Below are positions 877 through 17,456 of a DNA stretch of 64,000 nt, piece by piece (positions within the stretch are counted from its first letter, which is position 1; every line of letters starts with the position of its first letter). The notes under the pieces were generated by a model. That model worked only from the letters and a program-made list of their open reading frames with translations. It searched no databases and was not told where the DNA came from. Origin of the DNA: Fimbriimonadaceae bacterium (GTDB lineage: Bacteria; Armatimonadota; Fimbriimonadia; Fimbriimonadales; Fimbriimonadaceae); assembly GCA_022843485.1 (NCBI GenBank), contig JALHNM010000001.1:620001-684000 (forward strand), given 5' to 3'. Both the position numbers and the translations under genes were made by a program.

Positions 877-1920
877 TCACTCGACCTCTCCCGTGAGCCG
901 TCGGTAGGTCTCGACGACGCGGCGGACGTAGTTTTGGGTCTCGCGGAACGGGGGGACGCCGCCGTGGCGGCGGACGGCACCCGGTCCGGCGTTGTAGGCC
1001 GCAAGGGCGAGGACGAGGCCCTCGAAGGTGTCCCCAGTCTTGGCGATGTAGGTGTCGAGGTGCTGGCGCAGGAGCTTGACCGTGCCGTAGAGGTTCTGCT
1101 CGGTGTCGTAGGCGTCGGTGACGCCGAGCATCCGGGCGGTTCCGGGCATGAGCTGGCCAAGGCCCATCGCGCCCTTGTGGCTGGTCGTTTCGGGTCGGAA
1201 CGTGCTCTCGGCGAGGACGAGGGCGACCACGAGGCGGGCGTCCACTCCCCTAGCTGCGCTGAACGCGAGGATGGTCTCGGCGATGTGCTGCGCCTTGTCC
1301 GGGCTCAGACGGGGGTTCTGGCGGCGGATGAAGTCGGCATAGGCCGGGACGAGGGCGATCAGGCGTTCCGGGACGGCGACCTGCTTCGTGACGGGCGGGG
1401 CGACCTCGCGGGGGATGTCCCCGGGCATGGGCGAGGGTCGGCGGCCAGAGCGGGAGCTTTGGTTGGTGGGCCGAGTCCGCGAAGGTCCAGCCCGCGGCGG
1501 GGTCGGGGAGGGGCGCTGGGCTTCTTCCCAGGCCGCGATCGTCCGTTCGGGCGCAGCGGCGACGAGCTCGGACTCGAGGCTGGCCGTGCGGCTCGCGCGG
1601 CGGGCTCGGACGAGGAGCCGGGCGTTCACCCGGTTGGCACCGAGCCAGTCGGGCACGGTCGTGGCTCGGACGAGCACCTGGGGACCCCCGACCACGCTGA
1701 CGATCAAGAGGGTCGAGCCTTCGGCCCCCACGGTGCCCCCGACTTCGCCGCGAAGTTCGATGACCCGGTCACCGACGAAGGCGTCGATCCCGGCGGGGGT
1801 GGCGGCGGAGCGAACGCCGTGCTGCCGCCGGACCTGGAGGTAGTCCTCGAGGGACTGGGCGGCGACGACCGACGGAGCGGTCACGAGACCGAGCGCAAGG
1901 GCGATGGTGAGCGGTCGCAC
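877..1920 (-). CDS. Secreted lytic transglycosylase (SLT domain)
   Basis: A 347-residue protein. The open frame continues upstream into a tRNA gene, so I place the start at the GTG at 1920, which gives a clean signal peptide (RPLTIALALGLVTAPSVVAAQ). An uncharacterised N-terminal region and a Pro/Arg-rich linker follow, then a C-terminal SLT domain with LAESTFRPE (catalytic Glu near residue 238), GAMGLGQLMPGTA and LALAAYNAGPGAV. Family role: cleaves the MurNAc-GlcNAc bond of peptidoglycan in the periplasm with 1,6-anhydro product. The start is only 14 nt after the encoded CCA end of tRNA-Ser, so the mRNA 5' end may be made by tRNA processing. Confidence 0.9.
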   Translation of the reverse strand: MRPLTIALALGLVTAPSVVAAQSLEDYLQVRRQHGVRSAATPAGIDAFVGDRVIELRGEVGGTVGAEGSTLLIVSVVGGPQVLVRATTVPDWLGANRVNARLLVRARRASRTASLESELVAAAPERTIAAWEEAQRPSPTPPRAGPSRTRPTNQSSRSGRRPSPMPGDIPREVAPPVTKQVAVPERLIALVPAYADFIRRQNPRLSPDKAQHIAETILAFSAARGVDARLVVALVLAESTFRPETTSHKGAMGLGQLMPGTARMLGVTDAYDTEQNLYGTVKLLRQHLDTYIAKTGDTFEGLVLALAAYNAGPGAVRRHGGVPPFRETQNYVRRVVETYRRLTGEVE

Positions 1921-1934
1921 GATGGACTTTCGAA

Positions 1935-2025
1935 TGGCGGACAGGTCGGGATTCGAACCCGAGAGAGGATATAATCCCCTACCCACTTAGCAGGCGGGCG
2001 CTTTCGTCCACTCAGCCACCTGTCC
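1935..2025 (-). tRNA. tRNA-Ser (anticodon GCU)
   Basis: Read on the minus strand, a 7-bp acceptor stem GGACAGG/CCTGTCC, a D-arm, an anticodon stem CCCGC/GTGGG around loop CTGCTAA (anticodon GCU, reading AGC/AGU), a long variable arm typical of class II tRNA-Ser, and a T-arm containing GGTTCGAATCCC. The discriminator base is G and the 3' CCA is encoded (1937-1935). Confidence 0.96.
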
Positions 2026-2038
2026 GCATGGCCTCCTC

Positions 2039-2044
2039 ATTATG
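2039..2044 (-). promoter_or_regulatory. -10 box of tRNA-Ser
   Basis: CATAAT on the minus strand ends 13 nt before the first tRNA base. It overlaps the proposed ATG of the divergent carotenoid gene, so the two transcription units start back to back. Confidence 0.45.
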
Positions 2045-2797
2045 CATGATCGGTCGCCCGGCCCGCTAGAGTCAGGCCCCTCCCGTGTCTTTGGACCGGT
2101 CAGGCGTGGCTGGGCGGGGCTCAGCCTGCCGTGCCGGGCCTATCTGGGGCTCGTAGCGTTCTCGCTGGCGGGGTCGGCGCTGTCGCGGGCGACGGGGTTG
2201 GACGCGGGGTGGGTCGGTCGGGTCGCCGCCCTCGTGACGCTGGCGATGGGGGTGGGGACGGTGCTCCGGGCCCTGGGGCCGGGGGCGAAGACGTGGCCGT
2301 TCGCGCTCCTCATCGGGGCGGCTTCGGAGGTTTGTGGGCTGTACACGGGCCTGCCGTTCGGGGCGTACGCGTACACGGACGCCTGGTGGCCAACGGTGCC
2401 GCTGCCGGGCGGGCACCGGTTTCCGGTAGCGCTACCGTTCGCTTGGCTGATGATGGCGGGGGCGGGGTATCTGGTGGCGGCGAGGTGGGCTCGGCGCCCA
2501 GGGACATCGCCGGCCTGGTGGGCGGTGCCGCTGGGCGGGGTGCTCGCCGCACTGGCGGACGTGCCGATGGAGCCGGTGATGGCGGGGCCGTTGGGCTACT
2601 GGCGGTGGCTCGAGCCGGGCCCGTTACCTGGTGGTGCGCCGGTGGCCAACTTCGTGGGGTGGGTCGTGGTCTCGGCGGCGGCGGGGGCGGTGCTCCGGCT
2701 CGGTCCGCCGCCCCCGGACTCCCGGGAACCGCTGATCGTGCTCCTAGTCCACTCGCTGTTCGTCGTGGCGCTCGGGGCATTGCTCGTCGTCGGCTGA
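2042..2797 (+). CDS. Carotenoid hydratase-like membrane protein (CruF/DUF422 family)
   Basis: A 251-residue, very hydrophobic protein with about seven membrane segments. Family-type motifs are visible: EVCGLYTGLPFGAYAYTD near residue 95, PFAWLMMAGAGYL near 130, a conserved acidic segment LADVPMEPVM, and VANFVGWVVVSA near 205. CruF-type enzymes hydrate the 1',2' double bond of acyclic carotenoid ends (gamma-carotene or bisanhydrobacterioruberin). The next gene, a CrtI-type desaturase, supports a carotenoid role. The ATG at 2042 is the only obvious start but has no ribosome-binding site, so the N-terminal 25 residues are uncertain. Confidence 0.8.
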   Translation: MHDRSPGPLESGPSRVFGPVRRGWAGLSLPCRAYLGLVAFSLAGSALSRATGLDAGWVGRVAALVTLAMGVGTVLRALGPGAKTWPFALLIGAASEVCGLYTGLPFGAYAYTDAWWPTVPLPGGHRFPVALPFAWLMMAGAGYLVAARWARRPGTSPAWWAVPLGGVLAALADVPMEPVMAGPLGYWRWLEPGPLPGGAPVANFVGWVVVSAAAGAVLRLGPPPPDSREPLIVLLVHSLFVVALGALLVVG

Positions 2798-5331: not shown

Positions 5332-5801
5332 ACTTCGCCGAAGCCGTACGCCGTGCGTCCCGCGACGCCGGCCAGCCCATCGTCAACGAGCCCACCAGCT
5401 TTGAGACCCCGTCGCCTGCCCCCCCGATCGGGGAGTCGAACCCGGAGAGCGGCGCGGTGTCGATGCCGCAGATCTCTTCGGTCTCGGCGAGCGCGGCCCC
5501 CGAAGGGCCGCACCCCGCCGTAGCCGCGGGAAACGTCGTCCGCCTCGAACTCTTCCTGACCGCCGAGCAGACGTCGAGCATGCTGCGGGCGATCATCAGC
5601 GGCCAGCACACCGTGTTGACCGTGGGCGAAGCAGCCCAGTACCTGCGGGTTCGACCCCAGGCGCTTGCCCGACTCGCCGAGGACGGGCTCGTCCCGGGCG
5701 TTGTCGTGGACGGGAAGTGGCGGTTCCCGAAGAACACGCTCGACGAATGGCTCGCCAACGGCGGGGCCCCGACCCTGGAGGACCAGTCGCATGTCGCTTA
5801 G
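5328..5801 (+). CDS. Helix-turn-helix (excisionase/MerR-type) protein of the pil operon
   Basis: 157 residues. The GTG start overlaps the previous stop (GTGA) and AAGGAG lies 7 nt upstream. The first ~95 residues are low-complexity and Pro/Ser-rich. The C-terminal ~50 residues form a HTH_17/excisionase-type domain (LTVGEAAQYLRVRPQALARL, then GKWRFPKNTLDEWLA). It overlaps pilM by 11 nt. No integrase or phage gene is near, so it is not a prophage excisionase; a DNA-binding or protein-adaptor role in pilus expression is inferred. Function unknown. Confidence 0.8.
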   Translation: MNFAEAVRRASRDAGQPIVNEPTSFETPSPAPPIGESNPESGAVSMPQISSVSASAAPEGPHPAVAAGNVVRLELFLTAEQTSSMLRAIISGQHTVLTVGEAAQYLRVRPQALARLAEDGLVPGVVVDGKWRFPKNTLDEWLANGGAPTLEDQSHVA

Positions 5802-6876
5802 ACTCTTTCGCAGCAAGTCGTACGTCGGCCTCGATATCGGGGCCAAGGTCATCAAAGCCGTCCAGGTCGAGCGTAGCAACTCGGGGTGGAAGGTCACCCG
5901 GGTCGCCCACGGGCCGACCCCGCCGGGAGCCCTGAAGGACGGGGTCGTGTCCGAGGTCGAGGCACTTGCGCACGCGATTCAGGGCCTGCTCCGCTCGGGC
6001 CGGATCTCCGCGACCACCGCTGTGATCGGGGCCTCGGGGGCCTCGGTCGTCGTGCGCAAGGTCACTGTCGGCAAGATGCCGGAAGCGGTCCTGCGCAAGT
6101 CGATCAAGCTCGAAGCCGGCCGTTACGTCTCGTCGAGCGTCGAGGACAGTTTCATCGAGTTCGAGATCCTCGGTGACACCGAGGACGGGCAGATGGAGAT
6201 CCTCGTCGTTGCGGCCCCTCGCGAGTTGGTCCAGACGCGGGTGCTCGCCTGCGAGCAGGCCGGGCTCGAGGTCGAGGTCGTCGACGTGGACCCGTTCGCG
6301 ACGTACCGAGTCCTGGTCGAGGCGGCGCCGGACGGTGCGCTCTACGAGGAGACGGTCGCTCTTGTGGACGTCGGGGCCCAGACGACGAACGTGAGCGTGG
6401 TCCGGTCGGGCGTCTTCGCGATGACCCGCACGATCCCTCAAGGTGGCCAACTGCTCACCGAGGCGCTCTCCTCCTACTTCAAGCTTGAGGAGGAGCAGGC
6501 CGAACAAGGGAAGGCGCAGCTCGACTTGCGGGTGCTCTTGAACGAGGCCCAGCCTCAAGAGAACCCCCCGCTTCGGGTCGTCCAGCCCCACGTGGACGAC
6601 CTTGTTCGCGAGATCCGGCGCTCGCTCAACTACTTCCAGTCGCAGCAGGCCGACGGCCAGGGCAGCCCCGTGAACCGGGTCCTGCTCTGTGGCGGCGCGG
6701 CGGCGATGCCTGGGCTGGCGGCCTATATGGAGCACCGGCTCGGCATTCCGACCCAGCTCGTGGGCGTGTTCGACAACCCGCGGTTCACCTTCGCCGGCCT
6801 CGAGGAGGTCGGTCAGGGTCTCGACTTGACTGTGGCGTCCGGCCTCGCGATGCGGCCGTTCGCCCGCGCCGCCTAA
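5791..6876 (+). CDS. pilM: Type IV pilus assembly protein PilM
   Basis: 361 residues from the ATG at 5791, which has GGAGG about 10 nt upstream. Actin-like fold: phosphate-1 motif YVGLDIGAKVIKAVQVE at the N-terminus, ALVDVGAQTTNVSVV in the middle and VLLCGGAAAMPGLAAYM near the C-terminus. PilM is the cytoplasmic ring-forming partner that binds the N-terminus of PilN and links the inner-membrane alignment complex to the motor. An alternative upstream start would run through the preceding HTH gene and is rejected. Confidence 0.93.
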   Translation: MSLRLFRSKSYVGLDIGAKVIKAVQVERSNSGWKVTRVAHGPTPPGALKDGVVSEVEALAHAIQGLLRSGRISATTAVIGASGASVVVRKVTVGKMPEAVLRKSIKLEAGRYVSSSVEDSFIEFEILGDTEDGQMEILVVAAPRELVQTRVLACEQAGLEVEVVDVDPFATYRVLVEAAPDGALYEETVALVDVGAQTTNVSVVRSGVFAMTRTIPQGGQLLTEALSSYFKLEEEQAEQGKAQLDLRVLLNEAQPQENPPLRVVQPHVDDLVREIRRSLNYFQSQQADGQGSPVNRVLLCGGAAAMPGLAAYMEHRLGIPTQLVGVFDNPRFTFAGLEEVGQGLDLTVASGLAMRPFARAA

Positions 6877-6888
6877 CCGAGAGACACT

Positions 6889-7497
6889 ATGCCGATCGTC
6901 AACCTGATCTACGAACAGCGCCTCGCCGTCGAGCAGCGGGAGCGGCAGACGCGGATGCTCGTGCTGACCATGGTCGGCGTGGGGGCGCTCGCGTTCCTCG
7001 CCACCGGGTTCTTCCTCTTCGAGACCGCCCGCTTCCAGCTTATGTCCGGTGAGCTCGAGGCCCGCAAACAGAAGCTCAAGCCGATGATGGACCAGCTCGC
7101 AGGGAACCAGCTCGACCTGCGCGACATGGAGCCGAGGCTGAAGACGCTGCGAGACGCGGTGAAGCTCACCGAGCAGTGGAACCGGATCATGGACCACGTG
7201 GCGGTGAACACCCCCGGGGACGTGTGGTTCACCTCGTTCCGCTCGAACGTCTCGGACCCCGCCCGCGGGGTGCAAGTGTCGTTCGGCGGGTATGGGACGA
7301 CGCAGTCGGCGATCGGCGAACTCCAACTCCGGCTCGCGACCAGCACGGACCTTTCGAAGGTCGGTCTGCGCTTCAGCCAGGAGCGTCTGATCGACCAGGC
7401 CCGGGCACTGGAGTTCCAAATCGACGCGACGGTGACCGGCACCGAGAAGAAGCCGGTCGTGAAGAAGAAGGACGATAAGGCCAAGGGGGCCGGATGA
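6889..7497 (+). CDS. pilN: Type IV pilus assembly protein PilN
   Basis: 202 residues. The cytoplasmic N-terminus MPIVNLIYEQRL resembles the INLLP-type motif that PilM binds. One membrane helix (about residues 22-45) is followed by a coiled-coil-like stretch and a periplasmic ferredoxin-like domain. A Lys-rich tail ends the protein. Its stop overlaps the start of pilO (ATGA). Confidence 0.88.
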   Translation: MPIVNLIYEQRLAVEQRERQTRMLVLTMVGVGALAFLATGFFLFETARFQLMSGELEARKQKLKPMMDQLAGNQLDLRDMEPRLKTLRDAVKLTEQWNRIMDHVAVNTPGDVWFTSFRSNVSDPARGVQVSFGGYGTTQSAIGELQLRLATSTDLSKVGLRFSQERLIDQARALEFQIDATVTGTEKKPVVKKKDDKAKGAG

Positions 7498-8132
7498 CCA
7501 TGAACTCGAACGTGAAGTCGATCGCCCTGCTCGCCGGGGTCGTGATCCTAGTGGGCGGCGGTGCCGTGGCCTGGTCTTTGAACCTGAGCCAGGGCGCCAA
7601 GGACCGCCACGCGGGGCTCAAGTCGTCGATCCCGGACGATAAGCAACTCCGGACGATGCTGGCCGACTCGCAGTACCTGGTCGACGTCTCCCGCCGGGAG
7701 CTCGACCACCTGGAGCAGTCGATCCCGAACCTGGCTTACGTCCCGACCCTCCTGCGGGAGCTCGAAGCGTTGGGCCGGCGGGTCGATATCGAGGTAACCG
7801 GCGTGCGACCGGTGGCCGAGCGCCAGCAGCGAAGGGCCCCGGACCCGAAGGCGGCCCCCGAGAAGAAGCCTCCTTACGAGGAGATCAACATCGAGATCAG
7901 TGGGCGCGGCAAGTTCGCCGACCTGATGCGGTTAGTCGAAGAGCTCAAGGCGTTCCCGAAGATCGTGGCGGTGCAGTCGATCACGCTCGCGCCGCGACGC
8001 GAGGCGGCCAGGGCCGGCGATGAGCCGAGCTCGGAGTCGCCGAACCTCGACGCGACGATCCGCATCAAGGCGTTCGCGTTCACCCCGAAAGCGGAGGGCG
8101 CCCCGACTGGCGTCCAGGCAGCGACATCGTGA
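7494..8132 (+). CDS. pilO: Type IV pilus assembly protein PilO
   Basis: 212 residues with one N-terminal membrane helix (SIALLAGVVILVGGGAVAW), a coiled coil, and a periplasmic domain with the PilO-type segment YEEINIEISGRGKFADLMRL. It forms heterodimers with PilN in the inner-membrane subcomplex. Coupled by 4-nt overlaps on both sides. Confidence 0.9.
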   Translation: MTMNSNVKSIALLAGVVILVGGGAVAWSLNLSQGAKDRHAGLKSSIPDDKQLRTMLADSQYLVDVSRRELDHLEQSIPNLAYVPTLLRELEALGRRVDIEVTGVRPVAERQQRRAPDPKAAPEKKPPYEEINIEISGRGKFADLMRLVEELKAFPKIVAVQSITLAPRREAARAGDEPSSESPNLDATIRIKAFAFTPKAEGAPTGVQAATS

Positions 8133-8785
8133 AAGGCGACAAGAAGAAGCTGATCGTTGTAGTGGCCGTCCTGGTGGTGGTTCTGGGCGTGGGGGCGTTC
8201 TCGTTCCTCTCGGCTCCGGCCCCGACGGTCACGGCGACGAAGACGTCCTCGACCAAGCCGTCCACCCCGGGCGAAGCGGGGGCCAAGCCGAAGACGGACC
8301 CGCAGCGCGACGCCCTGATGGCGATGGTGACGGGCCCTCTCCCCGAGCGGGACCCGTTCAAGCGGCCCGCCTCGACGCAGACCGCCACCGAGCCCACAGC
8401 CGCCGCCCCCGCCAAGCCGGCCGCCGCACGTCCTGCCGTGCCCGCGGGCCGTCTCTCGCCGCCGGTGGCCCGGACTCGCGTCGAACCGATCGACCCGCTT
8501 CCTGGCGGAGACACGCTCGGCTCGCCGCGGGGCCCCTCTGCTAGGGGGTTCGAAGTGACAAAGGGGGCGCCGGTGCGCAACCCGGACGAATTCGCCTTCC
8601 GCGTCCAGGGCGTGGTCCTCGGTGAGAAGCCGATGGCCGTGCTCCAGGACGAAGAGGGCAACCAGACGCTCGTCCCGCTCGGCGGGACGATCGGTGGGGG
8701 GCGCGTCATCGCGATCGAACGCGACGGCGTGCGCATCCGCCACCGGGGCAAGGACAAGGTCGTGCCCCTTTCCGAGGGACCGTAA
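8129..8785 (+). CDS. PilP/GspC-like periplasmic linker protein
   Basis: 218 residues. The GTG start overlaps the pilO stop. One N-terminal membrane helix, a long Pro/Ala/Thr-rich linker (about 45-140) and a small C-terminal beta domain (FRVQGVVLGEKPMAVLQDEE, then VIAIERDGVRIRH) resembling the HR domain of PilP/GspC. In Pseudomonas PilP is a lipoprotein that bridges PilNO and PilQ; here a membrane anchor replaces the lipobox. Position between pilO and pilQ strongly supports this role. Confidence 0.8.
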   Translation: MKGDKKKLIVVVAVLVVVLGVGAFSFLSAPAPTVTATKTSSTKPSTPGEAGAKPKTDPQRDALMAMVTGPLPERDPFKRPASTQTATEPTAAAPAKPAAARPAVPAGRLSPPVARTRVEPIDPLPGGDTLGSPRGPSARGFEVTKGAPVRNPDEFAFRVQGVVLGEKPMAVLQDEEGNQTLVPLGGTIGGGRVIAIERDGVRIRHRGKDKVVPLSEGP

Positions 8786-11622
8786 TGCTGAGAACACTCC
8801 TCTCTGTCGGCCTTCTGGCCGTGAGCCTCCCGTCGGTGTTCGCCCAGGCGAAACTGACGGGCATCGAGACCAGGACGACCGACACCGGTCTCGACATCGT
8901 CATCCGCGGCGAGGGCCTGACGGCCCCGCAGACTTCGCGCGTCAAGGGCGGTACGTCCTTGATCCTCGAGTTCCCGGCCGCCCTCGTGGGTCCCCGGGCC
9001 CGCCAGACCGTCGTGTTCTCGGGCGTCGAGTTCGTTGAGGTCGTGCAGTTCACGACCCGGCCGCTCCGGTCGCGGGTCCACATCCGGCTCGAGCCGGGTG
9101 TCCGGCCCTCGATCGCCCAGGTCAACGGCCTGTGGACCGTCCGGTTCGCCGGGCGCCCGGTGGCCAAGAAGACCGCCGTCGATTCGGACCGTCTGGCCAT
9201 GGACGCGGCGGCGGCCGAACTCACACGACCGGTGAAGGCGAAGGTCTCGACTCCGGTCGCGAATCGACCCCCGGTCGCGAAGGCTGACCCGGTCGGCGAG
9301 TTCCTCACGGCAGCAACGGCCCAGCCGACCCCGGTGGTGACCGCGGCGCCGATCGCGGACCCGCAGCCTCAGGCGGACCTCCCCAAGTTGATCGACCGCG
9401 CCGCACGTCCGGCCCCGGCCACGACGCCGGCTCCGGCCGCCAGCCCTCGCCCTCGCCCGACGATCAGCCCGGAAGAGGCGCAGATGCGTCAGCGGGTGTC
9501 GCTCAACTTCATGGCGACCGACATCGTCCAGATCCTCCGCGGGCTGTCGCAGCAGGTCGGGGTGAATATCATCACGTCGCCCGAGGTGAGCCCGCCAGAC
9601 AAGCCGGTCCGACTCACGATGGCCCTCAACAACGTCACGGTCGAGGAGGCGCTCTCCATGATCACGGCGACGACGGGCCTGCGCTACGGCCGGGCCGGGA
9701 ACACCTTCGTCGTGGCCCCGAACACCAGTTTCCCGATGGTCATGCGCCAGATCATGGAGCGCGGGGCCGAGAACTACGAGACGCGGGTCGTCAACCTCAT
9801 CAGTGGCGAGGCCCAGCAGATCCGTGAGGCGACGCTCAAGGCGATCCCGCCGGACGGGCGGGGCGGCTACTACGACATCATCGTCCAGGCCCCGAAAGAG
9901 GCTGCTCCGGCGAACCCGGGTGGCGGCACCGTGCCGAACCTGATCGACCCGGGGATGATGGCCGGCCGGCCGAACCTGAACGCGGCCGCGCCGCAGGACG
10001 CTCCGGCGGCCCCCGCCGGCGAGGACAGCGCCCCGCCTTCGAAGGGACGTGCGTTCTACGTCATGCTCGTAGGCGACCCGACCCGGCTCGTCGAAGTCGA
10101 GGACTACGTCCGCAACCTGGACGCCAAGATCGCGAAGTCGTTCTCGATCAGCCGGGCCAACACGACCGGGACGGTCGTCGTCCCGATCCAGAGCGGCCAG
10201 ACCGAGCGGATCAAGACGATGATCAACCGGCTCCTGGAGGACAATCCCCGGCGGTCGGACTACTCGATCACCGAGACCAACGTGCGCGACCTCCAGCAGG
10301 GCGAACTGTCCACGCGGGTCCTGCTTATGATCGGCCCGAACGAGGAGCTCGAAACGCTTCGGCGGTTCGCAACGGCCCTCGACCGTGACCTCTGCGTCGC
10401 GGGCGGGATCGCCTATGCCGACGACGCGGCCGGTCTCGAGCGCTTCTACGAGGTCGTCGAGCTCAAGCATATCGAGCCGACCATCGCCGAGTTCGACCTG
10501 AAGGGCCGCGTCCGCGGGCTTTGGGTCACCGTGCTCCCCGACCCCGTGACGCCCGGCATCCAGGGCGAGGCCGAGGGTGAGAAGGCGGCGACGCCGACCG
10601 ACCAGGCCGTGCCAGGTACCTCAGGTGGCCAGGCGCCGAAGGGCGAGGAGACGAAGCTGACGCGCCAGATCGGCCGGGAGCCGATGCGGCTCGTGCTCCG
10701 TGGCACCCGCCAGCAGATCGACGAGGCGAAGGCGTACCTGGCCCTCGTCGACGTCGCTCCGCGCCAGGTCGCCCTCGAGCTGCGGGTCATGGAGCTCTCG
10801 CGAGAGGACGCCCTCCGGGTCGGCCTCGATTGGAGCGTGCTCGCTGGGAGCCGGGCGAACGTCATCCGGTTCAACCAGAACCTCGGCGACACCCCGGGCA
10901 GCCCGGGCACGATCTCGGGCGACCTCAACTTCGGCACGAAGACGAACCCGGTCGACGGGTCGGTCTTCGCCGAGCAGTTCAGCGTCCTCGGGACCCTCGA
11001 CTCGATCTCGAACAACCGGAACCTCATCGCTCGGCCGAACGCCTTGGTCTCGGACGGCCGGACGACGGACCTCTTCGTGGGCGACACGGTTCGCTACATC
11101 AAGAGCATCCAGACGAGCCAGAACGGGATCACGGTCCTTACGGACGAGATCAAGGTCGGCGTGCGGTTCGGCATTCGGGCCAGGGCGGGTGCGGACGGCA
11201 ACGTCGCGCTCGACCTCCGGCAGAACTTCAGCATCCTGACGGCGTTCACGCCGGTGCCGGGCGGCGGACAGTTGCCGCAGACGAGCGACCGGGAGACGAG
11301 CCTGTTCGTGAACATGCGGACGGGCGAGACGATCGCCCTAGGCGGGCTCATCCTCGACCAGGACCGCAAGAACTACTCGGGCATCCCGATCCTGAAGGAC
11401 CTGCCGATCATCGGTCGGCTCTTCGGTCGGACGAACAACAGCCGTGTCCGCACGGAGATCGTGTTCTTCTTGACGGCGGTCACGGTCGATCCCGGCAATC
11501 GGGCCAACGCGGCCTCGCCGGTCGGTTCGCTCGAGCGGTCCCCACGGCCGGCCGAGGATTACAAGAAAGCCCGGGAAGAGGCCGAGAAGCGCGGCCTCGA
11601 GCGGCGCAAGCAGGGCGGCTGA
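8785..11622 (+). CDS. pilQ: Type IV pilus secretin PilQ
   Basis: 945 residues with a signal peptide ending near VFAQA. An AMIN domain (peptidoglycan binding) spans about 20-130, then a Pro/Ala-rich linker, a secretin N/STN domain (LNFMATDIVQILRGLSQQV, about 240-310), further N-domains with linkers, and the secretin channel domain from about 660 to 905 (LIARPNALVSDGRTTDLFVG, GETIALGGLI, PILKDLPIIGRLFG). It forms the outer-membrane pore for the pilus. The start overlaps the upstream stop (TAATG). A strong hairpin follows the gene. Confidence 0.95.
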   Translation: MLRTLLSVGLLAVSLPSVFAQAKLTGIETRTTDTGLDIVIRGEGLTAPQTSRVKGGTSLILEFPAALVGPRARQTVVFSGVEFVEVVQFTTRPLRSRVHIRLEPGVRPSIAQVNGLWTVRFAGRPVAKKTAVDSDRLAMDAAAAELTRPVKAKVSTPVANRPPVAKADPVGEFLTAATAQPTPVVTAAPIADPQPQADLPKLIDRAARPAPATTPAPAASPRPRPTISPEEAQMRQRVSLNFMATDIVQILRGLSQQVGVNIITSPEVSPPDKPVRLTMALNNVTVEEALSMITATTGLRYGRAGNTFVVAPNTSFPMVMRQIMERGAENYETRVVNLISGEAQQIREATLKAIPPDGRGGYYDIIVQAPKEAAPANPGGGTVPNLIDPGMMAGRPNLNAAAPQDAPAAPAGEDSAPPSKGRAFYVMLVGDPTRLVEVEDYVRNLDAKIAKSFSISRANTTGTVVVPIQSGQTERIKTMINRLLEDNPRRSDYSITETNVRDLQQGELSTRVLLMIGPNEELETLRRFATALDRDLCVAGGIAYADDAAGLERFYEVVELKHIEPTIAEFDLKGRVRGLWVTVLPDPVTPGIQGEAEGEKAATPTDQAVPGTSGGQAPKGEETKLTRQIGREPMRLVLRGTRQQIDEAKAYLALVDVAPRQVALELRVMELSREDALRVGLDWSVLAGSRANVIRFNQNLGDTPGSPGTISGDLNFGTKTNPVDGSVFAEQFSVLGTLDSISNNRNLIARPNALVSDGRTTDLFVGDTVRYIKSIQTSQNGITVLTDEIKVGVRFGIRARAGADGNVALDLRQNFSILTAFTPVPGGGQLPQTSDRETSLFVNMRTGETIALGGLILDQDRKNYSGIPILKDLPIIGRLFGRTNNSRVRTEIVFFLTAVTVDPGNRANAASPVGSLERSPRPAEDYKKAREEAEKRGLERRKQGG

Positions 11623-11783: not shown

Positions 11784-13325
11784 ATGTGGATCGCAGACAC
11801 GAACCGCTGCCGAGAGATCGATCACCGGGCGACCGAAGAGTTCGGGATGCCGGCGATGGTCCTCATGGAACGCGCAGGGTTGGCCGTCTTCGACGCGGTG
11901 CGGCAGATGCTGCCCGAGGGCGGGCGGATCGCGGTGCTCTGTGGCCGGGGCAACAACGGCGGCGATGGGTTCGTCCTCGCCCGCCTCGCCCAGGAGCACG
12001 GGCTCGGGGTGGACTGCCTCGTCACGGCGACCGAGGGTGAACTCAGGGAGGAGTGCCGCCAGCAGATGCTCCAGGCCCGCGCCCAGGGGGTGCACCCGAT
12101 CTTCTGCGACGACGCCCGGTGGACCCGCCGGATCGACTGCCTCACGGGCTACGACCTGGTCGTGGACGCGGTCCTCGGGATTGGGGCAGCGGGCGAATTG
12201 CGGGGCCATGTCGCCCATGCGATCCATGCGATGAACCGCTCGGGCACGCCGGTGATCTCGGTGGACGTGCCGAGCGGCATCCACACTGACACGGGCTCGG
12301 ACCTGGGCGAAAGCGTCTGGGCCCTGCGGACGATCACGTTCGGGCTTCCCAAGCCCTACCTCTTCCAGGGTATCGGTCTCGAGCACGCGGGGTACTGGAG
12401 CGTGGCGGACATCGGCTTCCCGTCGCAACTCCTTCACGAGCCTACCGGGGCGAAGCTCATCGACGCGGCCTGGGTGGCGGGTCTGGTGCCGGAGAGGCTG
12501 AAGGCGAGCCACAAGGGTTCGAACGGTCACGTGTTGATCGTCGCGGGGAGCCGGTCGATGCGAGGGGCGGCGGCGCTGGCGGCGGTCGGAGCCCTACGTA
12601 GTGGGGCGGGGATGGTGACGGTCGCGGGGGTGGAGCCGGTGCTCCAAGCCGTCATCCAGCACGCCCCGGAGTGTACGTTGATCCCCCTCGACGAGCGGGA
12701 CGGCGTCATCGACCCGGCGGGGATCGATCTCTTGGCCGCGAACCAGCACCGGTTCACGAGCGCCCTGTTCGGCCCGGGGCTGACCCACGAGGCTCCGGTG
12801 CTCGACGCCTTGGCCCGGGTGTGGTCGCGGTGGGAGACGCCCTGCGTCATCGACGCCGACGCGCTGAACGCGGTCGCCCACGGGGTGGCCCTTCCGCCGT
12901 GCGAGGCCGTGTTGACGCCGCACCCCGGGGAGATGGGCCGGCTCCTCCAGCGGACGGTGGCCGAAGTCCAGGCGGACCGGTTCGCGACGGTCCGCGACTC
13001 AGTCGAGCGGTTCGGCAAGGCGGTCCTGCTGAAGGGTCCGCACAGCATCGTCGGCGCGCCTCATGAGCCCCTCCTTGTCAACACGACTGGGAACCCGGGG
13101 ATGGCTTCGGCCGGGATGGGGGACGTGCTCGGCGGGCTCCTGGCGGCGTTGCTCGGCCAAGAGTTGCCGCCCTACGAAGCCGCCGGGGTCGCGATGTTCT
13201 GGCACGGCCGGGCGGGCGACCACAGCGCCCAGACCGAGGGGCCGGTCGGGTTCACGGCTCGCGACGTTGCGAGGAACCTGCCGTTGGCGCGGGCTAAACT
13301 GTGCGCAACGTGCTCGGAAGACTGA
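11784..13325 (+). CDS. nnr: Bifunctional NAD(P)H-hydrate epimerase / ADP-dependent dehydratase (NnrE-NnrD)
   Basis: 513 residues. The N-terminal YjeF_N half (1-215) carries CGRGNNGGDGFVLAR and SVDVPSGIHTDTG, the epimerase signatures. The C-terminal ribokinase-like half (about 235-510) has SHKGSNGHVLIVAGS, LTPHPGEMGRLL and NPGMASAGMGDVLGG (about residue 437), the ADP-dependent dehydratase motifs. Together they repair hydrated NAD(P)H. Same fused architecture as E. coli NnrD. The end overlaps the next gene by 25 nt. Confidence 0.94.
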   Translation: MWIADTNRCREIDHRATEEFGMPAMVLMERAGLAVFDAVRQMLPEGGRIAVLCGRGNNGGDGFVLARLAQEHGLGVDCLVTATEGELREECRQQMLQARAQGVHPIFCDDARWTRRIDCLTGYDLVVDAVLGIGAAGELRGHVAHAIHAMNRSGTPVISVDVPSGIHTDTGSDLGESVWALRTITFGLPKPYLFQGIGLEHAGYWSVADIGFPSQLLHEPTGAKLIDAAWVAGLVPERLKASHKGSNGHVLIVAGSRSMRGAAALAAVGALRSGAGMVTVAGVEPVLQAVIQHAPECTLIPLDERDGVIDPAGIDLLAANQHRFTSALFGPGLTHEAPVLDALARVWSRWETPCVIDADALNAVAHGVALPPCEAVLTPHPGEMGRLLQRTVAEVQADRFATVRDSVERFGKAVLLKGPHSIVGAPHEPLLVNTTGNPGMASAGMGDVLGGLLAALLGQELPPYEAAGVAMFWHGRAGDHSAQTEGPVGFTARDVARNLPLARAKLCATCSED

Positions 13326-14575
13326 CAGGGTCCGTCATCGCCGCCTCCCTCGCGTTCGGCGCCGTCGCCCAGGACTCGGCCTCGATCCGCCTCCAATTCG
13401 GCTCGGAGGGTGAGCGGGAGGTCTGGGTGGGCTCGCTCGATCGCCCCGGCGAAGTGAGCGGGAGCCAGGTCGTAAGCGGGGTGAGCGCGATCCTCCCCGT
13501 CACGACCCGGCCGAACCGGGCGATGGTCTTCGTCCACGACCGCTCGACCGGGAACGTGGCCGAGCGGCCGCTGGCAGACGTGCTGAAGACGGGGACCTGG
13601 AGGGTCGGGATCCGCGACGAGAAACGGGTCTACCGGATGGACTTCGTGGTGGAGCACGACGGGAAACCGGTGGCCAGCGCCGTCGTGCGGGCGCGGGCTG
13701 GGGGCGAGACGCGGGAGGCCCTCGTGAGCCCCTCGGACGAGGGGAAGGCGAGCGTCTTCAACCTGAAGGCAGGTCGCGTCGAAGTCACGGTCCAGTACAA
13801 AACGGGCGAGCAGACGAAGTCGACGCCGGCGCAGACGTTCGACGCCAAGCTGGGGTTGGGCCCGACGGCGGCGCGTAAGCTTGTGATCTCGGAGAAGGTC
13901 GAGACGGTCGCCCCGACCGCAGGTTCAGGGCCGGCCACGGAATCGACGCCGGGGTCGGCGCGACCGGAAGGGTCGAGGCCGGAGACGGCGCCCCCCCCTC
14001 CGGCCGCTGCCCCCAACCCGCTCGGGACGCTGCTGAACCTGGTGGTCGGACTGGCCGTGGTCGGAGGGGTCGGGTACGCGATCTACCGCTACGTCGCGAA
14101 GAACCCGCAGCAGGTCCAGGACGCCTTGAAGCAGGTCGGTCTCGGCGACCAGGGCCAGGCGGGGGCGTCGGACCCCGCGCCCGTGCCTCAGGCTCCCCAA
14201 CCGGTGAAGCCGATCGTTCTCGACCCCGCGGGGGCCCCTGAGCTCTCGCCGGGCCCGCTCGCAAGCCCCGTGGCTGGAGCGGTGGCGGCGGTTAAGAACC
14301 CGCGGTTGGTCGGGGCGGACGGCTCGGTCGCGCTGCTGCTCGAGGGTGTTGCTACGGTCGGCCGCGAGGCGGGGCTCGAGGTGTCGCTGGTGGGCCAGGA
14401 CACGGTCTCCCGCCGGCACGCCCAGGCCGAACGGGCGGGCGACTCCGTGACCCTCACCGACCTCGGGAGCACGAATGGGACGTTCGTGAACGGGGTGCGG
14501 TTGACATCCCCGGTCGTGTTGCAGCCTGGGGACGCCGTCCAGTTCGGCTCGGTCGCCTTCCGGTTCGAGGTCTAG
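13301..14575 (+). CDS. Membrane-anchored FHA-domain protein with signal peptide
   Basis: 424 residues; GTG start inside the end of nnr. A signal peptide (GSVIAASLAFGAVAQ) precedes an extracytoplasmic beta-rich, Ig/carboxypeptidase-regulatory-like region (to about 200), a Pro-rich linker, one membrane helix (about 242-264) and a cytoplasmic FHA domain (about 336-424) with GREAG, SRRHAQ and LTDLGSTNGTFVNG, the phosphothreonine-binding loops. This topology lets an outside-sensing part report to a phosphopeptide-binding part inside. First gene of an FHA-FHA-VWA cluster. No close named family recognised. Confidence 0.8.
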   Translation: MRNVLGRLTGSVIAASLAFGAVAQDSASIRLQFGSEGEREVWVGSLDRPGEVSGSQVVSGVSAILPVTTRPNRAMVFVHDRSTGNVAERPLADVLKTGTWRVGIRDEKRVYRMDFVVEHDGKPVASAVVRARAGGETREALVSPSDEGKASVFNLKAGRVEVTVQYKTGEQTKSTPAQTFDAKLGLGPTAARKLVISEKVETVAPTAGSGPATESTPGSARPEGSRPETAPPPPAAAPNPLGTLLNLVVGLAVVGGVGYAIYRYVAKNPQQVQDALKQVGLGDQGQAGASDPAPVPQAPQPVKPIVLDPAGAPELSPGPLASPVAGAVAAVKNPRLVGADGSVALLLEGVATVGREAGLEVSLVGQDTVSRRHAQAERAGDSVTLTDLGSTNGTFVNGVRLTSPVVLQPGDAVQFGSVAFRFEV

Positions 14576-14578
14576 GGA

Positions 14579-15955
14579 ATGGGAGACGCCGTCCTTCGTT
14601 CGTTCGCCTGCGCGGTCGCGGGCACCCTCGCTTGGTTGCTCTGCGAGCCATGGTTCCCGAAGCAGTTCTCGGGCGAGGTCGCGCTCCGATCGGACCCGCG
14701 GTGGGCGGCGGTCGAGCAGGCGATGTTCCTCCTGCTGGGAGCGCTCATCGGGGCGACGGCGGGGCTCATCCATGGTTGGCGGAAGGGGGGTCGGCGGAAC
14801 TTGCTCCTTTCGGGGGCGCTCGGGCTCGTCTTCGGTGCGGTCGGGGGTGGGTTCGGGCACGTCGTGGGGGGAGCGTTCTTCACGGCGGCCTCGATCGCGT
14901 TCGGCCTCAACAACCCGATCGCCCGGGTCGCCGGGTTTGTGCCGATGGGTATGGCGATCGGGGCGGCGGTCGGGGCATCGGCGCTCACGGTCCGCTCGAC
15001 GGTGTCGGGGGCGATCGGGGGGTTGCTCGCGGGGTTCGCGGGGGGTGCCTTGTTCGACCCGGTCGCGCAGGTCTTCGGGACGCTGCTGATGCCGGCGAAC
15101 ATGGTGGCGGCCCAACCGGGCCAGCAAATCGAGGTCGGGGCCCCCGGGCGGGCGGTGGCGTCGTTCGGCCTGGGGCTCTTGATCGGGCTGTTCACGGCCC
15201 TCGTCGACCGTGCGACCCGACGGGCGTGGATCCGGCTCGTGCTCGGGCGGAACGAGGGGAAGGAGTGGCCGGTGGACGCGGCGCAGACGCTGATCGGGCG
15301 TGACGAGCGGGCGCACGTGCCGTTGTTCGGCGACCCGACTCTCCCGCCGCTCGCGGCGGTGATCGCTCGGCAGGGCGCCCAGTACGTGCTCCACGACCCG
15401 GGGACGCCGATGGGGGTCGGCCACAACGGGGTCCGGGTCCCGCAAGCGGTGCTGGGGCACGGGGACACGATCCAAGTCGGGGGCTTCAACTTGCAGTTCT
15501 TCCTGAGAGCCGGGGCCGCGAGGGCGGCGGCCGAGGGGCGGGCGCGGGCGCAGCCGGTCGGTGGCGGGGCCCCCGCCTATGGGCCCCCGGCGGGCGTCTC
15601 CCAAGCCCCTCAGCCTGCCTACCCCATGCCCGGCCCGGCGCCCCATGGCATGGCCCCGGCTCCAGCCGTTGCGGTCGGGCAGGTGCTGGTCGCGCTCTCC
15701 GGTCCGCTCACGGGCCAGCGGTTCGTCGTCTCGGGGAGCCTCGAGCTCGGCCGGGAGGCGGCGGGGGTGCCGCTCGGGTTCGACTCGCAGGCCTCGCGGC
15801 GGCACGCGGTCGTCGCCCAGACCCCAGCTGGTCTTCAGGTCACCGACCTTGGGAGCACGAACGGGACGTTCGTGAACGGGCAGCGCGTACCGATGAGCCC
15901 ACTCCGCCCGGGCGACTCGTTGACCATCGGATCGACGTCGTTCCGGATCGAGTGA
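14579..15955 (+). CDS. Polytopic membrane protein with two FHA domains
   Basis: 458 residues. About six Gly/Ala-rich membrane segments fill residues 5-210. A divergent FHA-like domain follows (about 229-305; LIGRDERAHVPLF, HGDTIQVGGFNLQF), then a Pro/Ala linker, then a canonical FHA domain (about 367-458; GREAAGVPL, SRRHAV, VTDLGSTNGTFVNG). The first FHA lacks the SxxH and STNGT core, so it may not bind phosphothreonine. It starts 3 nt after the preceding stop. Probable partner of the VWA protein downstream. Confidence 0.82.
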   Translation: MGDAVLRSFACAVAGTLAWLLCEPWFPKQFSGEVALRSDPRWAAVEQAMFLLLGALIGATAGLIHGWRKGGRRNLLLSGALGLVFGAVGGGFGHVVGGAFFTAASIAFGLNNPIARVAGFVPMGMAIGAAVGASALTVRSTVSGAIGGLLAGFAGGALFDPVAQVFGTLLMPANMVAAQPGQQIEVGAPGRAVASFGLGLLIGLFTALVDRATRRAWIRLVLGRNEGKEWPVDAAQTLIGRDERAHVPLFGDPTLPPLAAVIARQGAQYVLHDPGTPMGVGHNGVRVPQAVLGHGDTIQVGGFNLQFFLRAGAARAAAEGRARAQPVGGGAPAYGPPAGVSQAPQPAYPMPGPAPHGMAPAPAVAVGQVLVALSGPLTGQRFVVSGSLELGREAAGVPLGFDSQASRRHAVVAQTPAGLQVTDLGSTNGTFVNGQRVPMSPLRPGDSLTIGSTSFRIE

Positions 15956-16011
15956 ACATTCGAGTCGGGTCTCCTCGGGAGAACCTGTCCCATGCTGGAA
16001 GCCTGGGACCC

Positions 16012-16030
16012 CATCGGCTGGAAGCCGATG
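16012..16030. repeat. Perfect 8-bp hairpin upstream of VWA gene
   Basis: CATCGGCT-GGA-AGCCGATG. It ends one base before the -10 box of the next gene, so it fills the -35/spacer region. It may be a REP-like intergenic palindrome or an operator. Confidence 0.6.
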
Positions 16031-16031
16031 C

Positions 16032-16037
16032 TACACT
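16032..16037 (+). promoter_or_regulatory. -10 box (TACACT) of VWA gene, leaderless
   Basis: TACACT is followed by six bases and then the ATG at 16044. No Shine-Dalgarno sequence fits in between. Confidence 0.55.
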
Positions 16038-16043
16038 GGCCCT

Positions 16044-17456
16044 ATGGGCCAGGTTCCGCCCGATCCGAACAAGACGCAGATGAGCGGGTTCGACCCGAAC
16101 AAGACCGTGGTGGGAGGGTCGCCGGTCGGGAACCGGACGGTGGCGATGGGGGCCGCGCCCGGGGCGTCCGACCCGAACCGGACGACGGCCTGGGCCCCGC
16201 CGAGCCCCGAACTCACCGTCACCCTGACGCCGAGCCGTACCGCGACGATGGCGAACGGCCCGGCGCGGGAGCAGTTCTTGCTCGAGCTGGCCGCCCCCGC
16301 TGAGCCGGGGCTTCCGGGAGTGGTCTCCCAAGGCACGAGGACCCCGCTCAACCTGTGCCTGGTCATCGACCGGAGCGGGTCGATGGAGGGGCCGGCCCTC
16401 GAGTACGCGAAGCAGGCGTGCGGGTTCGTGGTCGACCTGCTGAGCCCCAACGACGTGCTCTCGATCGTGGTGTTCGACGAAACGGTCGAGGTGCTCATGT
16501 CGCCGCAGCGGGTGACGAACCGGCAGGCCGTGAAGGACGGGATCGCCCAACTCACGCCCGGCTACACGACGAACCTCTACGATGGGGTGACTCTGGCCGC
16601 GCACCAGCTCGGGCAGTTCGTGGAGGGGGGTCGGGCCACGCGGATGGTCGTGCTCACCGACGGCGAGCCCACGGCGGGCATCAAGGACTTCGCCTCGTTG
16701 GTGCAGCACGCGGGGGACCTGAAGGCGAAGGGGATCACCTGTACGTTCCTCGGCTTTGGGCCGGAGTACAACGAGGAGCTGCTCGCGGCGATGGCGAAGA
16801 AGGCGGGCGGCAACTACTACTACATCCCCCAACCTCAGCTGATCCCGGAGATCTTCCGTACGGAACTGCAGAAGCTCATGACCGTGTCGGCGATGCACCT
16901 GCGCCTGAGCCTGAAGCTGGCGAGGTGGGTGCGGCTACGGTCGGCGACGGGGATGTCGGTGCCGACGGACGCGAGGGAGTTCACGCTCGACCTGGCGGAC
17001 TTGGAACGGGGGGCGGTCTTGCAGCAGGTGCTGGACTTCGAGTTCTCGAACCACCCGCTGGGGCACTACCGGGTCGCCGGGGGGAAGCTGAGCTACACCG
17101 ACGCCGGCGGGACGGACCGGGTCGTCGATGTGGACCTCGTGATGGAGTTCACGGCCGACGCGGCGCGGTACTCGGCCCCGATCGACCCCCGGGTCGCGGC
17201 GGCGCACGAGGTGAGCGCGGCGAGCCGGGTGGTCGAGAAGACGATCTTGGGCCTGAAGACGCAGGCGATCACCGCCGCCGTCGCCCTCGCCGACCTCCAG
17301 AAGACGCAGGCGCTGCTGCTGGGTCAAGGGCGGACGGCGGAGGCGCAGGAGGTCACGATCGCGATGCAGGCCATCCAACGCGGCGACACCGGCGGGGCCG
17401 AGAAGACGCTGATGGGCACGATGGTCAACCTGGACCAGGGCAAGCGCCAGGGGTGA
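16044..17456 (+). CDS. Cytoplasmic von Willebrand factor A (VWA) protein with N-terminal NKT repeats
   Basis: 470 residues without a signal peptide. The first ~50 residues are unstructured and repeat (D)PN[KR]T: threonines at 11, 21 and 47, plus NRT at 32. The VWA domain (about 98-280) has an intact MIDAS: DRSGS at about 109, then TPGYTTN and LTDGEPT. A beta-rich domain and a helical C-terminus (AVALADLQKTQALLLGQG) follow, as in other bacterial VWA proteins of this length. The two preceding genes carry FHA domains, which bind phosphothreonine, so the repeats may be kinase targets read by those FHA domains (inference). Apparently leaderless. Confidence 0.86.
   Translation: MGQVPPDPNKTQMSGFDPNKTVVGGSPVGNRTVAMGAAPGASDPNRTTAWAPPSPELTVTLTPSRTATMANGPAREQFLLELAAPAEPGLPGVVSQGTRTPLNLCLVIDRSGSMEGPALEYAKQACGFVVDLLSPNDVLSIVVFDETVEVLMSPQRVTNRQAVKDGIAQLTPGYTTNLYDGVTLAAHQLGQFVEGGRATRMVVLTDGEPTAGIKDFASLVQHAGDLKAKGITCTFLGFGPEYNEELLAAMAKKAGGNYYYIPQPQLIPEIFRTELQKLMTVSAMHLRLSLKLARWVRLRSATGMSVPTDAREFTLDLADLERGAVLQQVLDFEFSNHPLGHYRVAGGKLSYTDAGGTDRVVDVDLVMEFTADAARYSAPIDPRVAAAHEVSAASRVVEKTILGLKTQAITAAVALADLQKTQALLLGQGRTAEAQEVTIAMQAIQRGDTGGAEKTLMGTMVNLDQGKRQG

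Follow-up and report, generated by a model that had tools for sequence, protein, structure and literature searches.

The archaellum of Sulfolobus acidocaldarius is regulated by the proteins ArnA and ArnB together with the kinase ArnC and the phosphatase PP2A (PMC6509490, PMC12852372; PDB 8s05, 5a8j, 5a8i). ArnC, a Hanks-type kinase, phosphorylates threonines in the helical bundle of ArnB, the FHA domain of the zinc-finger protein ArnA binds, and PP2A reportedly reverses the process (PMC12852372). Here we describe a bacterial arrangement that resembles this archaeal switch, starting from a 64,000-nucleotide stretch (hereafter the window) of a Fimbriimonadaceae bacterium of the phylum Armatimonadota (GCA_022843485.1, contig JALHNM010000001.1, positions 620,001 to 684,000). 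Three successive open reading frames (ORFs), all on the plus strand, encode FHA1 (13301-14575, 424 aa), FHA2 (14579-15955, 458 aa) and a VWA-domain protein, here called VWA (16044-17456, 470 aa). A preliminary description of the window had proposed an FHA-FHA-VWA module assembled on phosphorylation, and both the ORFs and the Pfam domains agree with that gene layout. The system is completed by three proteins that it had missed, namely a zinc-ribbon FHA protein (ZFHA), a phosphatase of the PP2C type (PP2C) and a kinase of the Hanks type, and it knew of no named system of this layout, yet ArnA-ArnB has much of it; as a whole, its interpretation is partly supported. In our assessment, the three window genes are probably part of a six-protein phosphothreonine (pThr) switch that brings VWA and ZFHA together at the membrane.

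The VWA protein and its threonine repeats

VWA (Pfam VWA, 2.8e-18) consists of an N-terminal tail, a vWA domain, a beta-sandwich and a C-terminal helical bundle, which together (the tail excepted) correspond to the ArnB fold. ArnB (8s05_A) is the top PDB match of the VWA profile by sequence and also the top structural match of its AlphaFold2 model (mean predicted local distance difference test score, pLDDT, 85.3), in which residues 55-468 match with Z 35.4 over 373 residues, a root-mean-square deviation of 3.4 and a TM-score of 0.76 by target. The identity between VWA and ArnB is about 17%, and the Pfam scan gave no ArnB_C match at E<=0.001, the presence of that model in the Pfam copy being unconfirmed. 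The metal ion-dependent adhesion site (MIDAS) is intact (D109, S111, S113, T175 and D206), with DxSxS, T175 and D206 invariant. Judging from hydropathy, the protein has no signal peptide and no transmembrane (TM) segment outside the folded domain. The helical bundle (17187-17438, residues 382-465) comprises predicted helices at 382-406, 411-427, 431-445 and 449-465, and three of its threonines, T400, T421 and T455, each in a [KR]T[QILVM] context, are invariant in 42/42 orthologues. One relative has a VWA gene with an in-frame TAA (G039:C148:3799-5160), either decay or an assembly error.

The first 54 residues (16044-16205) form the putative bait tail, which reads ...DPNKT(11)QMSGFDPNKT(21)VVGGSPVGNRT(32)VAMGAAPGASDPNRT(47), exactly as the preliminary description had it. 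Since pLDDT stays below about 50 in residues 1-51 (about 40-46 in residues 1-50), the tail is predicted to be disordered, again as proposed. The four sites reported earlier are not equally conserved among 42 orthologues. Threonine is kept in 90% at repeat 2 (DPNKT, T21; 16092-16106), in 90% at repeat 3 (NRT, T32; 16131-16139) and in 95% at repeat 4 (DPNRT, T47; 16170-16184), but in only 19% at repeat 1 (DPNKT, T11; 16062-16076), which is lineage-specific. Candidate sites per VWA tail have a median of 3 and a maximum of 5.

The DPN[KR]T repeats are a conserved signal and not a product of chance. There are 85 copies in 48 VWA tails and 66 in ZFHA tails, whereas shuffled tails give 0.012 (mean) and 0.01, respectively. 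A two-motif tandem pattern searched at the DNA level gave 126 matches in 73/291 Armatimonadota genomes, compared with 0 for the reversed-pattern control, and all 126 lie inside VWA or ZFHA genes (list compared by eye with the gene places in the 291 genomes). The repeats, and above all their threonines, are conserved across the phylum, so that a lack of conservation in orthologues, which would have refuted the preliminary interpretation, was not seen. A search for them in other proteins, suggested by the preliminary description, yielded ZFHA as a second carrier.

The most discriminating evidence in hand is that these repeats use threonine only, because FHA domains prefer pThr over phosphoserine (PMC6509490), whereas kinases and N-glycosylation accept serine as well. 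DPx[KR]T was counted 176 times and DPx[KR]S not once, though serine is common in the VWA and ZFHA tails. Across the phylum, [KR]T outnumbers [KR]S by 180 to 1 in loci from 80 named genomes, which are the top 80 out of 443 relatives in a single scan of genome contigs. Most of these carry Armatimonadota, or one of its classes or families, in their titles, and some are titled 'bacterium' only; one record (L272) is labelled Actinomycetota, and its match coordinates are identical to those of G211, a member of Armatimonadota according to the genome search. What surrounds the threonine is far more variable. The asparagine at -2 is replaced in 25/176 DPx[KR]T repeats with the threonine retained, and the tail positions conserved at 95% or more are only T32 and T47 in VWA, and T20 and T31 plus two prolines in ZFHA. 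In one family DPN has gone from the ZFHA tails while T-[QV]-x-hydrophobic is retained, and other classes have ATQ or PTQ in place of the basic residue before the threonine. The basic residue, which the preliminary description had considered suitable for many Ser/Thr kinases, is present in the repeats here, but we rejected it as a general kinase determinant.

FHA pockets and the six-gene cassette

Hydropathy supports two membrane-bound FHA proteins, as previously described, with one TM segment in FHA1 and several in FHA2. FHA1 has a signal-peptide-like N-terminus (residues 4-22), an extracytoplasmic region, a TM segment (residues 243-265) and a cytoplasmic C-terminal FHA domain (14354-14548, residues 352-416; PF00498, 4.2e-17). 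The N-terminal half of FHA2 is polytopic, with several hydrophobic segments within residues 4-210, and two FHA stretches were matched by Pfam. The first, FHA2-N (15287-15481), is a degenerate 26.8-bit match without S-R-H, whereas the second, FHA2-C (15749-15931), is canonical.

FHA domains had been described as pThr binders, and here some of them, but not all, have the residues for it. The pThr-site signature (Gly-Arg, Ser-x-x-His and Asn) is conserved in FHA1, in FHA2-C and in both domains of ZFHA (ZFHA-a and ZFHA-b), but not in FHA2-N. R355, S370, R371 and N392 of FHA1 are conserved at 97% or more, and R392, S406, R407 and N428 of FHA2-C are invariant in 42 orthologues. The sequence of FHA2-N lacks the pThr-binding serine and histidine, so this domain probably does not bind pThr. 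Besides these five FHA domains, the window genome has just one more, its sixth (G000:C1:834396-834617), in a small protein (at most 185 aa) that is not linked to the cassette.

In relatives, the three window genes are the first part of a cassette with the order FHA1-FHA2-VWA-ZFHA-PP2C-kinase, which is intact and co-oriented in 17 named-genome loci. The synteny of FHA-FHA-VWA, a check proposed earlier, recurs in 30/47 loci of the same order and in 35/80 named-genome loci; the VWA-ZFHA-PP2C-kinase run was found in 33/80, many of the loci being cut by contig ends. A genome outside the order (G219) carries all six genes in one run after nnrD. In G096 the first five lie together, and the kinase is on another contig. 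In the window genome itself, the cassette is split into three loci (C1, which holds the window, C6 and C3), so that the kinase and the phosphatase are encoded elsewhere. The absence of both from the window, noted earlier, was borne out: the genome has two kinase matches and one PP2C belonging to this family, and all three lie outside.

ZFHA of the window genome (C6:585-1451) contains a zinc ribbon (CxxC-x10-CxxC), two FHA domains with invariant R, S and N, and the same N-terminal repeats as VWA. In one relative ZFHA is split over two frames (G033:C1:284164-285023), by decay or assembly error. PP2C follows ZFHA at 1467-2291 (both within C6:585-2291); it matches Pfam PP2C_2 and scores 234.2 against the cut-off of 230 of NF033484 (Stp1/IreP equivalog), that is, above it. 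PP2C orthologues share an N-terminal E[ITP]TA[KRE][FYIL], a form akin to ET14T15SVF of OdhI, which may be an extra FHA docking or phosphorylation site.

The Hanks-type membrane kinase has one full orthologue in the window genome (C3:180329-182041). Against NF033483 (PknB PASTA kinase) it scores 286.1, below the cut-off of 450, through the kinase domain only. The second kinase match (L088/L002, G000:C1:595454-596149), 25 kb to the left of the window, is distant from the cassette kinase and has repeated PASTA-like segments in its C-terminal half, as judged by eye. In Fimbriimonadia the activation loop of the cassette kinase, EPN[LI]T[MI]DG, resembles DPN[KR]T; we gave such mimicry little weight because other classes have EPS, EPT or EEAS loops and the loop is a single conserved site.

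The distribution of the partners also ties them together. VWA was found in 195/291 genomes of the phylum and ZFHA in 193/291, with both in 182, one alone in 13 and 11, respectively, and neither in 85 (Fisher p 2e-46, uncorrected for relatedness). Two genomes of genus g29 (G029 and G157; 1.5 Mb), from the family of the window genome, are without VWA, ZFHA, PP2C, the kinase orthologue and any FHA domain, and retain only a distant kinase. Relatives of these genomes have the cassette genes at several distinct loci, so the co-loss points to one functional unit, with the reservation that both genomes are reduced; the two are useful as natural knock-outs of the cassette.

Upstream of FHA1 lies nnrD (11784-13325, plus strand; Pfam YjeF_N and Carb_kinase), which encodes an NAD(P)HX epimerase/dehydratase and overlaps the FHA1 start by 25 bases. 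It is probably in the same operon as FHA1, while standing outside the switch itself. This metabolite-repair gene is the upstream neighbour of FHA1 phylum-wide, and the order nnrD-FHA1-FHA2-VWA recurs. Directly upstream of nnrD is a pilM-N-O-P-Q-like operon (5665-11622; secretin PilQ, 8785-11622). Since the machine under ArnAB control is pilus-like, a link with type IV pili suggests itself; it was rejected, as PilQ neighbours the module in only 1/124 loci (some cut by contig ends).

The proposed switch and its alternatives

The proposed switch builds on the observed cassette with its conservation and co-loss, the threonine-specific repeats, FHA pockets that are intact, and the fold shared with ArnB. 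In cytoplasmic VWA and in ZFHA, the membrane kinase would phosphorylate the threonines of the tandem N-terminal repeats; the invariant threonines of the VWA helical bundle may be further targets. The resulting pThr sites would then be bound by FHA1 and FHA2 (through FHA2-C), both membrane proteins, and by the FHA domains of ZFHA. As each tail has several sites and each complex several FHA domains, binding would be multivalent, so that VWA and ZFHA would be gathered at the membrane and the response would be steep. PP2C would remove the phosphates and reset the switch. Both FHA1 and the kinase would sense or transmit the state of the envelope through their extracytoplasmic regions.

Several points weigh against this proposal. 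Phosphorylation by the cassette kinase, FHA binding and assembly at the membrane are steps that we infer. As the cassette of the window genome is split over three loci, the evidence for its kinase-substrate pairing comes from co-loss and from the gene order of relatives, and the genomes in which co-loss was seen (G029 and G157) are reduced and have lost much else too. Moreover, a role of the tail would not have been inherited from ArnB, because the pThr sites of ArnB are in the C-terminal bundle and not in an N-terminal tail.

The alternative that survives best, though we consider it unlikely, is self-inhibition of the GarA/OdhI type, in which the phosphorylated ZFHA tail would fold onto its own FHA domain and block it, switching binding off, with the VWA tail merely competing for that site. 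The threonine motifs of ZFHA precede its FHA domains, as in OdhI (PMC2784874), and the N-terminal E[ITP]TA of PP2C resembles the OdhI motif. However, the repeats are tandem and not single, there are two FHA domains in ZFHA, and the VWA repeats can act only in trans because VWA has no FHA domain.

Decidedly unlikely, in our view, is that the tail threonines are kinase autoregulation sites or a phosphate sink that no FHA domain reads, with assembly in the ArnAB manner through the C-terminal bundle alone. Such an explanation would suit T400, T421 and T455, whose invariance exceeds that of any tail site, and the location of the ArnB pThr sites in the bundle (PMC12852372). On the other hand, several bundle threonines may be conserved for the fold, and the repeats of the tail form a conserved ordered array that also occurs in ZFHA, a protein unlike ArnB.

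We regard as very improbable a linear motif that works independently of phosphorylation, whereby DPN[KR]T would dock elsewhere (for example, through its aspartate on the metal of the VWA MIDAS) and the threonine would be kept for packing. MIDAS sites do bind acidic residues of partners (PMC6509490), and that of VWA is intact. Nevertheless, a whole family has lost D, P and N from its ZFHA tails with the threonine kept, serine never takes the place of threonine in DPx[KR] repeats and almost never in other classes, and all cassette partners belong to threonine-phosphate signalling. Finally, the notion of D-x-N-x-T glycosylation sequons, into which NKT and NRT would fit as N-x-T, was rejected as practically untenable, because serine never replaces threonine though sequons allow it, N is lost with the threonine kept (in the 25 repeats noted above), and neither VWA nor ZFHA has a signal peptide-like segment.

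Relation to known phosphothreonine systems

Several described systems share features with the proposed switch. As in GarA/OdhI of Actinobacteria, a conserved N-terminal threonine motif would be the substrate of a Hanks kinase and be read by FHA; those proteins, however, have a single motif, a single FHA domain and an intramolecular lock, and neither a zinc ribbon nor a VWA partner. The NCBIfam OdhI model (cut-off 200) gave 44.5 bits for FHA1, 54.2 for FHA2 and 51.8 for ZFHA, all below the cut-off. The ABC (ATP-binding cassette) transporter Rv1747 of M. tuberculosis, with two FHA domains, offers a parallel in multivalent FHA contacts and in clustering that is promoted by kinases and reversed by PstP (PMC9312465), but there a single transporter polypeptide contains both the FHA domains and the linker, and there is no VWA protein and no DPNRT repeat.

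The PpkA/PppA/Fha pathway of type VI secretion likewise combines a Hanks kinase, a PP2C phosphatase and an FHA protein. There, Fha binds the membrane component TssL at a pThr near its N-terminus, T14 (PMC3953482), and PpkA contains a VWA domain (PMC1262709); unlike in the cassette, VWA is fused to the kinase and tandem repeats are absent. Scores with TIGR03354 (type VI Fha, TagH; cut-off 120.25) were all below the cut-off (ZFHA 74.4, FHA1 33.8 and FHA2 32.9 bits). The mycobacterial FhaA/FhaB-PstP-PknB cluster also brings FHA, PP2C and kinase genes together, but without VWA or a zinc-ribbon FHA protein, and the cassette kinase is not of the PASTA type by model; ZFHA scored 96 with the FhaB model, below its cut-off of 125. 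An open literature search found no paper on a TerY kinase-PP2C-vWA triad and none describing the repeats or the cassette.

Closest of all is ArnA-ArnB. In both cases a protein with a vWA domain, a beta-sandwich and a C-terminal helical bundle is paired with a zinc-finger FHA protein (ZFHA matches the ArnA chains 8s05_C and 5a8i, E 1.2e-13) and accompanied by a Hanks-type kinase and a phosphatase. The genes adjoin in Sulfolobus, to judge from the tags Saci_1210/1211, and VWA and ZFHA are adjacent in many Armatimonadota. The invariant T400, T421 and T455 of VWA also lie in the domain that holds the pThr sites of ArnB. Unlike ArnB, VWA of Armatimonadota has a disordered N-terminal tail, typically with 3-5 bait sites, and ZFHA, unlike ArnA, has two FHA domains and a bait tail of its own. 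The bacterial system also has two membrane FHA proteins and a PP2C-type phosphatase (PP2C_2) in place of PP2A. Because the two systems correspond broadly in their folds, partners and types of enzyme, but the tail, the second FHA domain, the ZFHA tail, the membrane FHA proteins and PP2C differ, we class it as an ArnA-ArnB-like variant and not as a member of ArnAB.

The bait tail, the second FHA domain and the membrane FHA proteins are additions relative to the known ArnA-ArnB. Going further, we give roughly even chances to the view that this is a membrane-linked bacterial relative of ArnA-ArnB in which the kinase sites of VWA and ZFHA are a shared bait array of tunable valency for four FHA pockets, and in which one kinase and one PP2C drive reversible clustering of the six proteins throughout the phylum. 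It would be a natural case of FHA valency encoded by repeats, with threonine positions retained and the flanking motif changed. For a phylum whose molecular biology has hardly begun, the cassette offers a concrete, complete and testable pThr circuit (kinase, phosphatase, readers and bait), and through their common protein folds it connects a bacterial system with ArnA-ArnB, the motility switch of archaea.

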